From contig NZ_CP108414.1 in the NCBI RefSeq assembly GCF_035978755.1, positions 3,782,001 through 3,846,000 on the forward strand: DNA of 64,000 nt. The letters run 5' to 3'. Numbering within the stretch: position 1 is the first letter of the stretch; every line of letters begins with the position of its first letter. This document shows positions 6,041 through 10,375 of the stretch, piece after piece. The translations under genes were made by a program, and so were the position numbers. This stretch comes from Streptomyces sp. NBC_01298. Lineage in GTDB: Bacteria > Actinomycetota > Actinomycetes > Streptomycetales > Streptomycetaceae. The notes under the pieces are model-generated. The model had not been told where the DNA came from. It saw only the letters and a program-made list of their open reading frames with translations, and made no database searches.

Positions 6041-7627
6041 CTACTCCCACTCGATGGTGCCCGGGGGCTTGCTCGTGCAGTCCAGGACCACGCGGTTGAC
6101 GTCCGGCACCTCGTTGGTGATGCGGGTGGAGATCCGCGCGAGCACCTCGTACGGCATGCGCGTCCAGTCCGCGGTCATCGCGTCCTCGGAGGAGACGGGG
6201 CGCAGCACGATCGGGTGGCCGTAGGTACGGCCGTCACCCTGGACGCCGACGCTGCGGACATCGGCCAGCAGGACGACCGGGCACTGCCAGATCTCGCGGT
6301 CCAGGCCGGCCGCCGTGAGCTCGTGGCGGGCGATGGCGTCGGCCTCGCGGAGCAGGTCCAGACGCTCCTTGGTGACCTCGCCGACGATGCGGATGCCGAG
6401 GCCGGGGCCGGGGAACGGCTGGCGCTGGACGATCTCGGCGGGCAGGCCGAGCTCCTGGCCGACCATCCGGACCTCGTCCTTGAACAGCTGGCGCAGCGGC
6501 TCGACGAGCTCGAACTCGATGTCGTCGGGGAGCCCGCCCACGTTGTGGTGGGACTTGATGTTGGCGGTGCCGGTGCCGCCGCCGGATTCGACGACGTCCG
6601 GGTACAGGGTGCCCTGGACCAGGAAGGCCACCGCCGGGCCGTCCTCCTGGAGGATCTCCAGCTGCGCCGCCTCGAAGACGCGGATGAACTCGCGGCCGAT
6701 GATCTTGCGCTTGGTCTCCGGGTCGGAGACGCCGGCCAGCGCGTTCAGGAACCGCTCCTGGGCGTCGACGACCTTCAGCTGCACGCCGGTGGCGGCGACG
6801 AAGTCCTTCTCGACCTGCTCGGTCTCGCCCTTGCGCATCAGACCGTGGTCCACGTACACGCAGGTGAGCTGGGAGCCGATGGCCTTCTGCACGAGGGCCG
6901 CGGCGACCGCGGAGTCCACGCCGCCGGACAGGCCGCAGATGGCGCGCTTGTCGCCGACCTGCTCGCGGATGAGGGCGACCTGCTCCTCGACGATGTTGCC
7001 GGGGGTCCAGGTGGGCTGGAGGCCCGCGCCGCGGTAGAGGAAGTGCTCCAGGATCTGCTGGCCGTGCGTGGAGTGCATCACCTCGGGGTGGTACTGCACG
7101 CCGTAGAGCTTCTTCTCGTCGTTCTCGAAGGCCGCGACCGGGACGACGTCGGTGGACGCGGTGACGGTGAAGCCCTCGGGAGCGGCGGAGCAGGCGTCGC
7201 CGTGGGACATCCACACCGACTGGTTCTCGGGGGTGCCCTCGAAGAGGGTGGATCCGGCCTTGGAGACGGCCAGCGGGGTACGGCCGTACTCGCGCGAGCC
7301 GGTGTTGTCGACGGTGCCGCCGAGGGTGACCGCCATGAGCTGGAAGCCGTAGCACATGCCGAAGACGGGGACGCCGGCCTCGAAGATCGCGCCGTCGAGC
7401 TGGGGGGCGCCCTCCTCGTACACGGAGGACGGGCCACCGGAGAGGATGATCGCCTTCGGGTTCTTGGCGAGCATCTCGGCCACGGGCATCGTGCTGGGCA
7501 CGACCTCGGAGTAGACCCGTGCCTCGCGGACGCGGCGGGCGATCAGCTGCGCGTACTGGGCGCCGAAGTCGACGACGAGAACCGTGTCCGGGGCGCTGTC
7601 GTGGGTGGCGAGGGTGGCTTCTGGCAC
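6041..7627 (-). CDS. guaA: GMP synthase (glutamine-hydrolysing)
   Basis: Converts XMP to GMP using ATP and ammonia from glutamine, the last step of GMP synthesis in the cytoplasm. The 528-residue length is usual. The N-terminal class I glutamine amidotransferase domain has its catalytic Cys at about 92 in [10 protein letters not shown] and the His/Glu pair in YHPEV. The ATP-pyrophosphatase domain has the P-loop LSGGVDSAV. The C-terminal dimerisation domain ends in KPPGTIEWE. The GTG start at 7627 is preceded by GGAAGG. guaB and guaB3, which supply XMP, lie about 19 kb away in the same window. The upstream region is shared with the divergent chorismate mutase leader. Confidence 0.97.
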
Positions 7628-7715
7628 GGGGCAGGCCTTCCGGCGGAAGAGGGGGTTGTTTTGTCGATTCTAACGGGGGACGGATACCCCTCTTCGTCTC
7701 AGTCTCCGAACCGGC

Positions 7716-7745
7716 TTGGCACGGAGCGGGACAGAGGGTCATAAT
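7716..7745 (+). promoter_or_regulatory. Promoter of the chorismate mutase leader transcript
   Basis: TTGGCA (7716-7721) and CATAAT (7740-7745) are separated by 18 bp, close to the housekeeping sigma consensus. Only six bases separate the -10 box from the ATG at 7752, so the transcript would begin at or next to that ATG without a leader. Confidence 0.65.
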
Positions 7746-7751
7746 CCCTCC

Positions 7752-7820
7752 ATGCGCAAGCAGCTGAGCTTCCTCTTTACCTATGGCACCGGCCGGTCCG
7801 GTCGCCATGGGTCATCGTGA
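7752..7820 (+). CDS. Putative Phe/Tyr leader peptide of the chorismate mutase gene
   Basis: A 22-codon open frame, MRKQLSFLFTYGTGRSGRHG plus two Ser, begins six bases after a good -10 box, so it looks leaderless. Codons 7, 9 and 11 are Phe, Phe and Tyr, end products of the pathway of the downstream gene. The stop codon is followed after 24 nt by a strong terminator hairpin and then by chorismate mutase. This is the arrangement of a transcription attenuator whose leader translation senses charged tRNA-Phe or tRNA-Tyr. Regulation has not been shown here and is inferred from layout. Confidence 0.55.
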   Translation: MRKQLSFLFTYGTGRSGRHGSS

Positions 7821-7844
7821 TGCTCGCTTGAGCCACTGACTTCC

Positions 7845-7880
7845 CAGAGCGCCCCGGTCCGACAGGACCGGGGCGCTCTG
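7845..7880 (+). terminator. Terminator hairpin in the chorismate mutase leader (possible attenuator)
   Basis: A 16-bp perfect inverted repeat (7845-7860 and 7865-7880) with a GACA loop. The 3' arm contains GGACCGG (7865-7871). This could instead pair with CCGGTCC at 7793-7799 inside the leader peptide, giving a possible antiterminator. No U-tract follows. Confidence 0.6.
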
Positions 7881-7923
7881 GCGTTCCCGCTCCGGTCGGA
7901 CCCTCACCCACAGGAGACCGACC

Positions 7924-8217
7924 ATGAGCACGACCACGATCGCCGCGCACGGCGCCACCACCGCCACCACCACCCCCGAGCAGCTGATCGCCGGATCCCG
8001 CGAGCGGATCGACGCCATCGACGACCGGATCATCGGCCTGATCCAGGAACGGATGGCCGTCTCGACCGTCATCCAGGAGGCCCGGATCGGTTCGGGCGGG
8101 CGCCGGGTGCACCTGTCGCGGGAGATGGAGGTCCTGACCCACTGGAGCGACGCACTCGGCAAGCCCGGCACCACGCTCGCGATGACCTTGCTGGAGCTGT
8201 GCCGCGGCCGGGTCTGA
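7924..8217 (+). CDS. Chorismate mutase, AroQ-delta type
   Basis: Converts chorismate to prephenate, committing it to phenylalanine and tyrosine synthesis in the cytoplasm. The 97-residue all-helical protein matches the short AroQ-delta subclass typical of actinobacteria. Helix 1 has SRERIDAIDDRIIGLIQERM, followed by the loop SGGRRVHLSREMEV and the tail LLELCRGRV. AroQ-delta enzymes of mycobacteria are weak alone and are activated by complex formation with DAHP synthase, and the same is likely here. ATG 7924 has AGGAG a few bases upstream. Expression is probably controlled by the upstream leader peptide and hairpin. Confidence 0.88.
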   Translation: MSTTTIAAHGATTATTTPEQLIAGSRERIDAIDDRIIGLIQERMAVSTVIQEARIGSGGRRVHLSREMEVLTHWSDALGKPGTTLAMTLLELCRGRV

Positions 8218-8442
8218 CCCTCGGCGCGACGCCCGTGACGCCTGTTCGTCACCCGTCCGGACCGTGACCGGCCCCACGGCCCTTCGTTGATGCCGATGAC
8301 CGTGCCAGCCAGGTGCGGACCGCAGCACCACGCGTGGATCCGCTGGAGCGATGAGACGTACCCCTGCGGGGCGTGCGTCGTGGGACCTCGCTCCTTCTAT
8401 GTGACCGGACGGCAGGGGACAGCAGCCCGGTCACCACACAAA
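8218..8442 (+). other. Non-coding interval with a short coding-like tract (8287-8412)
   Basis: No full gene is supported between chorismate mutase and the next terminator. An ATG at 8287 opens a frame whose first about 40 codons show coding-like GC3 and read CGPQHHAWIRWSDETYPCGA followed by CVVGPRSFYVTG. The pattern then decays and the frame runs without a natural stop into the antisense of the next gene. It may be a decayed gene remnant or chance. No Shine-Dalgarno or promoter was seen. Confidence 0.25.
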
Positions 8443-8561: not shown

Positions 8562-10217
8562 TTACGCGCGGCCGGTTGTCCGGCGCCGGAACGCCAGGAA
8601 CACGGCGCCGCCCGCGGCCACGAGGACCGCGCCGGCGAGCAGGATCGGCCCGGCGGTGACGCCGGTCTCGGCGAGGCCGCCGTTCGGCGTCTTGCCGTTG
8701 CCGGTACTGGCGCCCGGGCTCGGAGTGGCGCTCGTGCTCGGCGTGGCCGTCGGGCTCGTGGAAGACGTCGGCTTCGGGCCGGGCGTGGTCGGGGTCGGCG
8801 TGGGCGTGACCTGCTTGCCGTTGATCACGAAGGCGGCCTTGTCGTTGGCGTGCTTCGGGTCCCAGCTGATCGGCGCGGCGCCGTCGGGCGACCAGCTGCC
8901 GACGGTGACGGACCCGGTGGCCTCCGCGATGACCTTCTCGATCTTCAACTCGAAGGGGAAGCTGAACTTCTCCTTCTCCCCGATGACGTGCGAGGTCGGG
9001 CAGAAGTAGCGCGGTGCGCCCAGCCGACCTTCGCGGTAGCCCCCCGAGGCCGTGACGGCCCTGCAGAACTTGGGCGCCTTGGTGACCTTCGCGCCCGCCG
9101 GGATCACGATGTCCGCCATGGCGACGTCCTCGCCCGAGCGGAGGTAGGCGACCCACGCGGGGCCGTCGTTGCGGAAGCCGATGGCGGCCTTGACCGTCTC
9201 GCCCGCCTTGCCCTTCACGGAGAGGGGCTCGGCCACCAGGTCGGCGGTGTTCTTCACCGAGAAGCCGAACTCGTGCTGGTTGTTCCACGGGTCCAGGTCC
9301 ACCCCGCGCGGCGTGGCCTTGGCCGAGCGCGTCTTGAGGCCCAGCTTCTTGCCCGTGCGGGGCGTGCTGAACTTCTGCGTGGACTTCGGCTGGGAGCCGG
9401 CCTCGTGCACCCCGTAGATCAGCTCGTCGATGAAGGCGTGCGGAGCGGCCTTGAGGGTCAGCGCGCCGGCGATCTCCCAGACCTCGCCCGGCTTGATCTC
9501 GTTGTCGAAGGTGCAGACCGTCACGCCCCAGCCCACGTTCCAGGGCTGGCCCGTGCTGTCGTCCTGGCTGAAGGCGCAGTTGTCGTACTGCTCGACCAGG
9601 CCCATGCCGTGCGTGGTGATCATCTCCAGCGCCACGCCCTTGACCGGCTCGGTGCCCGCGTTGGCGAAGACGACCGGGAGCGGCTGGGTCTCACCCGGGA
9701 CCAGCTTCGACTTCAGCTTGGCCTTTTCCAGGACCAGGTCCGGGCCGCCGACCCGGACCTCGGTGGTGGTGGGCTTGAAGGTGGCGCCCTGCGCCGCGCC
9801 GGTCATCGTCAGGTCGGCGACCGTGCCGTTCTTGCTGCCCTTGGCGGCGGTGAGGTCCAGGGACACGACCTCGCTGCCGTACGTCCAGACCGCCCAGTCC
9901 GTGCAGGTGACCTTCGTCGCCGTGAGGGTGCAGTCGTTGGAACGCTCCGGGGTGAGCTTCACGTCGGCGACGCCCTTGAGGGGGGTCAGGTCGATCGTGT
10001 AGGTGGCGTGCTCGCCGAAGTCCTTGCCCGTCTCGTTCTCGACGACGAAGCCGACGGTGGTCGGCCGCGCCTTCCCGGCGTCCCCCGGGTGCGGGTGCAG
10101 GCCGATCTCCTCCGGGCTGGTGAGCGTGAATACCGGGTCCGCCGCGTTCGCGGGGGTGGCGGCCAGGCCGACGGCCACCAGGCCGGCTGCCGCCAGCAGG
10201 GAGATGCGCTTTCTCAT
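8562..10217 (-). CDS. Cell-wall anchored surface protein with LAETG sorting signal
   Basis: A 551-residue secreted protein. The start is ATG 10217, behind AAGGACGGC. A Sec signal peptide (basic MRKR, hydrophobic core, cleavage after TPANA) is followed by about 450 residues of beta-rich domains, then a Thr/Pro/Ser-rich spacer of about 45 residues. The C-terminus is a sorting signal: LAETG at about 515-519, a hydrophobic helix and a final RRRTTGRA. LAXTG is the motif recognised by class E sortases of Streptomyces rather than LPXTG. Paired Cys in the ectodomain (for example SNDC/VTC) suggest disulfides. Ligand and role are unknown. Terminators lie on both sides, so it is probably monocistronic. 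Confidence 0.85.
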   Translation of the reverse strand: MRKRISLLAAAGLVAVGLAATPANAADPVFTLTSPEEIGLHPHPGDAGKARPTTVGFVVENETGKDFGEHATYTIDLTPLKGVADVKLTPERSNDCTLTATKVTCTDWAVWTYGSEVVSLDLTAAKGSKNGTVADLTMTGAAQGATFKPTTTEVRVGGPDLVLEKAKLKSKLVPGETQPLPVVFANAGTEPVKGVALEMITTHGMGLVEQYDNCAFSQDDSTGQPWNVGWGVTVCTFDNEIKPGEVWEIAGALTLKAAPHAFIDELIYGVHEAGSQPKSTQKFSTPRTGKKLGLKTRSAKATPRGVDLDPWNNQHEFGFSVKNTADLVAEPLSVKGKAGETVKAAIGFRNDGPAWVAYLRSGEDVAMADIVIPAGAKVTKAPKFCRAVTASGGYREGRLGAPRYFCPTSHVIGEKEKFSFPFELKIEKVIAEATGSVTVGSWSPDGAAPISWDPKHANDKAAFVINGKQVTPTPTPTTPGPKPTSSTSPTATPSTSATPSPGASTGNGKTPNGGLAETGVTAGPILLAGAVLVAAGGAVFLAFRRRTTGRA

Positions 10218-10375
10218 GCCGTCCTTGACCAGCGAGGTCCCTCCCGGGTTGCCCCCTTCACCCTGTGACGCACGCCACACATCCGTGACCGGATTCCGCT
10301 ACAACCATCCGGGCCCCGCGGCTGTCATCCATGTAGTTCGGCGGGTACCGCGCTCGGAGGGGGAGTGCGGTGCCC

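Follow-up and report, generated by a model that had tools for sequence, protein, structure and literature searches.

A candidate ribosome-mediated attenuator with Phe and Tyr codons upstream of a chorismate mutase gene in Streptomyces

A short open reading frame (ORF) upstream of a chorismate mutase gene in Streptomyces sp. NBC_01298 is quite probably the leader of a ribosome-mediated transcription attenuator that would sense charged tRNA-Phe and tRNA-Tyr. It was studied in a window, that is, the whole stretch of DNA analysed (64 000 nucleotides). The elements, their conservation, the choice of codons and the covariation of the terminator stem were observed directly. In the proposed mechanism, transcription would begin at or adjoining the leader ATG, as the promoter spacing suggests, and the ribosome would load onto a leaderless mRNA. 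With ample Phe and Tyr, it would reach the stop codon, region 2 would be unavailable, the hairpin at 7844-7881 would form and transcription would halt. With Phe or Tyr scarce, the ribosome would wait at the rare UUU (codon 9) or UAU (codon 11) and so mask the coding hairpin's first arm. Region 2 (7794-7811) would then pair with the terminator 5′ arm (7843-7861) while the 3′ arm is still to be transcribed, and RNA polymerase would enter the gene. Without translation, the coding hairpin would be expected to form, and then the terminator.

The features of the locus are collected in Table 1. An earlier sequence-only reading had described a promoter (TTGGCA, 18 bp, CATAAT) ending six bases before an ATG, and a 22-codon leader with Phe7, Phe9 and Tyr11; both were found at the coordinates claimed. 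The promoter was matched at 10 of 12 positions and was the sole promoter found by scanning 7650-8300 (50 shuffles: mean 0.0, sd 0.1). From its spacing, the transcript 5′ end is predicted at or adjoining the leader ATG. The downstream gene was taken for a chorismate mutase in the same reading, and Pfam agrees (CM_2, E 1.1e-07, 32.4 bits against a cut-off of 27). The leader RNA (7752-7900) folded with a z score of -6.25, and 0 of 200 shuffles folded as well. The genome of the window carries one full-length copy of the leader, and a search for paralogous leaders in eight genomes gave nothing but weak matches beside the main leader.

Table 1. Features of the leader and mutase gene in the window.
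Feature	Position	Strand	Remarks
-35 hexamer TTGGCA	7716-7721	+	sequence read, promoter scan
-10 hexamer CATAAT	7740-7745	+	6 nt 5′ of leader ATG
Leader ORF MRKQLSFLFTYGTGRSGRHGSS	7752-7820	+	22 codons and TGA
Phe7 TTC, Phe9 TTT, Tyr11 TAT	7770-7772, 7776-7778, 7782-7784	+	candidate sensing codons; core TTT ACC TAT GGC
1:2 hairpin within leader ORF	7779-7812	+	predicted; 7779-7792 pairs with 7798-7812
Region 2, the hairpin's second arm and putative antiterminator strand	7794-7811	+	predicted to pair with 7843-7861 (14 bp)
Terminator-like hairpin, 17 bp	7844-7881	+	arms 7844-7860 and 7865-7881, loop GACA; weak U-run 3′
GGAG, likely ribosome-binding site of mutase gene	7913-7916	+	by eye; outside hairpin
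Chorismate mutase gene, 97 aa, CM_2	7924-8217	+	Pfam

Neighbouring genes were annotated as well. The opposite-strand neighbour (6041-7627) carries GMP synthase domains (Pfam). On the minus strand at 8562-10280 lies an ORF of 572 aa that matches nothing in Pfam. It contains a stretch rich in Pro, Thr and Ser, and its C-terminus has LAETG followed by a hydrophobic tail, which we take to resemble a sortase anchor.

Related loci were obtained by a mutase search of the named genomes. Of 387 loci confirmed, the 80 best, almost all of them under Streptomyces titles, were compared, as had been proposed as a check. The Phe/Tyr leader was present in 79 of these 80, with F-x-Y-G kept; the eightieth (L031) could not be judged because its contig begins 149 bases before the match. 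One regular expression recovered F-x-F-T-Y-G or a close form in 78 of the 80 loci and missed the variant form of L079. Over 79 leaders (78 loci and the window), TTTACCTATGGC was invariant apart from two changes near its edge, one T and one G-type. A -10-like hexamer stood 6-7 nt 5′ of the start in 77 of the 79, hexamers having played no part in the choice of leaders. Parsing yielded 139 leaders, which were reduced to 107 distinct ones. Leaders at L104, L143, L146 and L158 were read by eye; the parser missed them because it demanded a -10-like motif and a hairpin.

The pattern TTYACCTAYGGCN{8,26}GCCAYGG was found in 174 of 297 genomes of the family and in 10 of 17 genera; at least one of the 174 genomes (G130) resembles a chance match, and the reversed pattern matched 5 of the 297 by row count. 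In all ten genomes compared by hand, the pattern shared contig and strand with the mutase gene and lay a short way upstream of it. The large genus g14 had no pattern match in any of its rows and no mutase match in 7 of 7 genomes tested; genomes G116 and G174 likewise carried neither the pattern nor the mutase gene. Leader pattern and mutase gene were lost together in these cases, which was counted in favour of an attenuator. Genomes negative for the pattern that retain the gene often carry variant leaders: of 21 first loci of this set (L141-L161), 18 had a clear leader. The exceptions were L158, with Gln for Tyr, L161, with an altered core, and L160, which had no leader; degenerate or missing leaders before these mutase genes may mark loci at which control has been lost. 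Core variants included W-F-S-Y-G, F-F-F-Y-G and F-W-F-G-Y-G.

Could the ORF instead encode a conserved small protein acting in its own right, the hairpin being incidental? Parts of the peptide do recur across many species (TYGxxPxGCHGRAA), but N-termini are free to vary among the related loci around the kept F-x-Y-G. In at least seven loci (L055, L061, L084, L091, L093, L094 and L137) the tail of the peptide is read in a shifted frame but the hairpin persists at the nucleotide level, as expected if codons are needed as far as Tyr and RNA pairing beyond it. The conserved residues also coincide with hairpin bases and with the Phe-x-Tyr codons, and a functional small protein therefore appears very improbable.

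The first core codon was TTT in 104 of 107 leaders and the third was TAT in 105 of 107, although the parser permitted TTC and TAC; in background ORFs of the same loci (GC3 above 0.85), TTT made up 106 of 5937 Phe codons and TAT 139 of 4115 Tyr codons. The hairpin includes the third position of TAT but not that of TTT, so that slow decoding of rare codons or another constraint on the RNA may be at work. Strong nucleotide conservation, these third positions included, would also suit an RNA leader that binds a protein or ligand and needs no translation of the ORF, and in the folding model 37 of 107 leaders paired region 2 with the terminator 5′ arm (at least 3 pairs) even without a ribosome. Against such an RNA, the first start after the best -10 shared the reading frame of the core in 106 of 106 leaders; this count is partly circular, since an in-frame start was a condition for choosing leaders. 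Aromatic codons are, moreover, what the leaders of other families share, and no Rfam family reached threshold: over the whole window, 0 matches attained the gathering score, and the 33 sub-threshold matches in 7700-7930 at E <= 10 were headed by sbcD (28.4 bits against 40). We consider a translation-free leader distinctly unlikely and retain the ribosome-mediated attenuator.

The two hairpins were evaluated on 33 diverse leaders. Coding hairpin and terminator together had 94.7% of cells paired, and their covariation score was reached by 0 of 500 shuffles; four of five structure measures were matched by 0 of 500 shuffles and the fifth, pair types, by 42 of 500. Double-sided changes were seen at 8 of 15 terminator pairs and at 1 of 12 coding-hairpin pairs. 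The coding (1:2) hairpin overlaps the sensing codons and, in alignment A2, had 92.5% of cells paired, mostly invariant; this predicted element is backed by invariance rather than by covariation. The RNAalifold consensus of alignment A1 gave a mixed structure with zero double-sided changes and was set aside.

The terminator had been drawn with a 16-bp stem. The hairpin is present, with 17 bp rather than 16, and its U-run in the window is called poor because a terminator scan, which needs 5 T in 8, found none; at least 3 T in 9 nt follow the hairpin in 90 of 107 relatives. The poor U-run would suit control of translation of the gene, or Rho, in place of intrinsic termination, and so would the want of a clear terminator at several mutase leaders of another family (f6; L280-L282). 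A further point on that side is the stretch 3′ of the hairpin, whose complement to the loop region extends over at least 6 nt in 30 of 107 leaders, with 6.7 expected from mononucleotide shuffles uncorrected for kinship. The GGAG and start of the mutase gene lie outside the hairpin, however, and the hairpin stem covaries. Such a route seems unlikely, if less so than the two rivals above, and intrinsic termination is preferred for the attenuator.

The post-hairpin stretch itself was inspected in the window (7882-7923) and at L001, L112, L117 and L119. It reads TCCTGTCGG in some relatives and is complementary to the terminator loop region; by eye, it also complements ACAGGAG before the mutase gene. 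This complementarity might possibly constitute a second layer of control.

In folding models, the best antiterminator is region 2 with the terminator 5′ arm, the classical 2:3 arrangement. Over the 107 leaders, this pairing had a mean z of -1.75, with 58% of leaders at p <= 0.05; in the window it contains a U-U mismatch (7797/7858), and its register varies between lineages. The antiterminator first drawn had joined CCGGTCC in the leader (7793-7799) to GGACCGG in the terminator 3′ arm (7865-7871). That 7-bp pairing exists (-12.8 kcal/mol), but it is neither the best nor the favoured alternative: region 2 with the 3′ arm had a mean z of -0.09 over the 107 non-redundant leaders, like shuffled sequence, and was rejected. 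Compensatory changes in both pairings of the switch had been named as evidence that would support it. They were found in the terminator stem, as counted above; the 2:3 antiterminator had 82.3% of its cells paired, a level attained by 64 of 500 shuffles, and covaried no better than shuffles, 257 of 500 of which reached its score.

States of the ribosome were modelled on the window. A ribosome stalled at Phe9 gave 12.1 expected 2:3 pairs. With no ribosome on the RNA, 11.0 pairs of 1:2 formed as against 1.9 of 2:3, and 3.4 pairs of 2:3 were left with the ribosome at the stop codon. A stall at Tyr11 with the full RNA gave 15.1 terminator pairs. The energies were -40.6 for the terminator and -24.2 for the antiterminator, the terminator winning at equilibrium; the switch must therefore be kinetic, decided during transcription. 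Among the relatives, 106 of 107 leaders had at least 5 pairs of 2:3 in the stalled state, a count that is uninformative because it is attained in 85% of shuffled controls. Placing the ribosome at the stop codon still left region 2 with at least 3 pairs to the 5′ arm in 84 of 107. The pair-count model of ribosome states was non-specific against shuffled controls and was rejected. The core reading as a candidate translation-coupled attenuator was upheld, with the conserved Phe/Tyr codons, the promoter spacing and the hairpins all pointing to it.

Aromatic leaders were then surveyed across the class. A leader covariance model (R1) was run over 394 genomes and gave matches in 205. Its E-values were not taken as evidence by themselves: many matches proved to be GC-rich hairpins and nothing more, some of them present on both strands. 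For this reason 20 stretches were read directly. An aromatic leader was present in 18 of the 20, seven before a mutase and eleven before a DAHP synthase (L216 and L219 had none); that of L210 was identified by visual reading of the opposite strand. The identity of five mutases and three DAHP synthases was confirmed with Pfam, and that of L200 and L201 by a mutase alignment search.

Upstream stretches were hand-picked from hit lists, one genome appearing twice per set. An ORF with at least 3 aromatics in seven residues was found in 11 of 30 mutase stretches (one doubtful, L293; reverse strand 1 of 30) and in 40 of 63 DAHP synthase stretches (three doubtful, L264, L312 and L328; reverse strand 0 of 63). 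When a -10 was also demanded, 1 of 31 and 27 of 64 remained, respectively, with 0 and 0 on the reverse strand. Trp occurred in the aromatic cluster in 23 of 27 DAHP synthase genera as against 1 of 24 mutase genera (p 2.3e-9), and in the whole peptide in 24 of 27 as against 9 of 24 (p 2.8e-4); the genera are non-independent, and the lists were hand-typed and omit some leaders that were read (e.g. L146, L210, L214, L286 and L293). Counted by family, the figures were 10 of 11 and 1 of 9 (p 9e-4).

Rare codons recurred before the synthase. In 32 distinct DAHP synthase leaders, counted with L264 and without L312 and L328, TTT made up 32 of 61 Phe codons and TAT 28 of 47 Tyr codons; in the synthase genes at the same loci, TTT made up 0 of 76 and TAT 2 of 94. 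In a structure set of 29 DAHP synthase leaders, from which all three doubtful ORFs were left out, a stem of at least 10 bp followed 25, and at least 3 T in eight were found in 21. The 2:3 pairing was not above chance outside the family (mean z -0.29 for the 29 DAHP synthase leaders and -0.50 for 15 mutase leaders).

Leaders were by no means universal. Most mutase orthologues of family f20, and those of several f6 genera, lacked one. Other f6 mutase genes (L280-L282, L246 and L247) are preceded by a short ORF ending RFFYGYR[PS]AVPVV, with the clear terminator hairpin absent in L280-L282; another mechanism may operate there. At type II DAHP synthase loci in eight genomes of the window's own family, 8 of 9 had no aromatic ORF, and the ninth (L347) was doubtful. 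The genome of the window has six type II DAHP synthase matches (genes or pieces), and its two full-length type II synthases (G000:C1:6580522-6581823 and G000:C3:116001-117299) have no aromatic leader upstream.

On balance, these comparisons lean towards a class-wide scheme in which near-leaderless leader peptides would control two entry points of aromatic amino-acid synthesis. Codon content would depend on where in the pathway the controlled enzyme acts: DAHP synthase leaders would carry Phe, Trp and Tyr codons, and mutase leaders Phe and Tyr codons but usually none for Trp. High-GC genomes would retain the rare UUU and UAU as the triplets that do the sensing. Codons for all three amino acids before DAHP synthase fit an enzyme that serves all three products. 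The scheme predicts that the aromatic amino acid answered by each leader follows its Phe, Tyr and Trp codons, and with the kept UUU and UAU it could be tested cleanly whether the sensitivity of an attenuator depends on which synonymous codon it uses. If the attenuator is real, attenuation in Streptomyces would extend to the sensing of Phe and Tyr. The site is a branch point feeding primary metabolism and many aromatic natural products, and the element is small enough to rewire.

RNA-seq of S. lividans, in the portion of the report available, gave eight leader peptides (alaL, ilvL, thrL, trpL1, trpL2, leuL1, leuL2 and metL), several of them leaderless; like the leader in the window they all precede amino-acid genes, but in that portion a leader for Phe/Tyr or for a mutase gene is not among the eight (PMC8079986). 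An older comparison, likewise available in part, listed trp, trpS, leuS, ilvB, leuA and cys, with nothing conserved upstream of other amino-acid pathways (PMC1262725). The available portions of PMC13236596, PMC4633059 and PMC4895711 make no mention of such a leader. In the literature searched, whose coverage excludes most subscription papers, no leader before an actinobacterial chorismate mutase was described; we judge the element to be a putative classical ribosome-mediated attenuator at a gene where none was found described.

Two known systems invite direct comparison. The pheL leader of E. coli has an ordinary ribosome-binding site and is not known to sense through codons other than those for Phe. 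Both it and the leader in the window stand before chorismate mutase activity, but PheA is bifunctional. According to the accessible part of the source, pheL precedes the chorismate mutase-prephenate dehydratase gene pheA and is governed by charged tRNA-Phe (PMC11802643). In Corynebacterium glutamicum, AroR (Phe-Tyr-Phe) precedes aroF, which encodes a DAHP synthase, and the sources, as far as available, describe ribosome stalling under Phe limitation, Tyr being without effect (PMC11802643, PMC4046766, PMC7356990). Both AroR and the leader in the window are actinobacterial aromatic leader peptides with a Phe/Tyr cluster, but AroR controls a DAHP synthase and the gene in the window encodes a CM_2 chorismate mutase, and the peptides differ. 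AroR is leaderless, as Neshat reportedly found in 2014, and the promoter spacing in the window would fit an ORF at the transcript start. AroR before aroF is the nearest described case.
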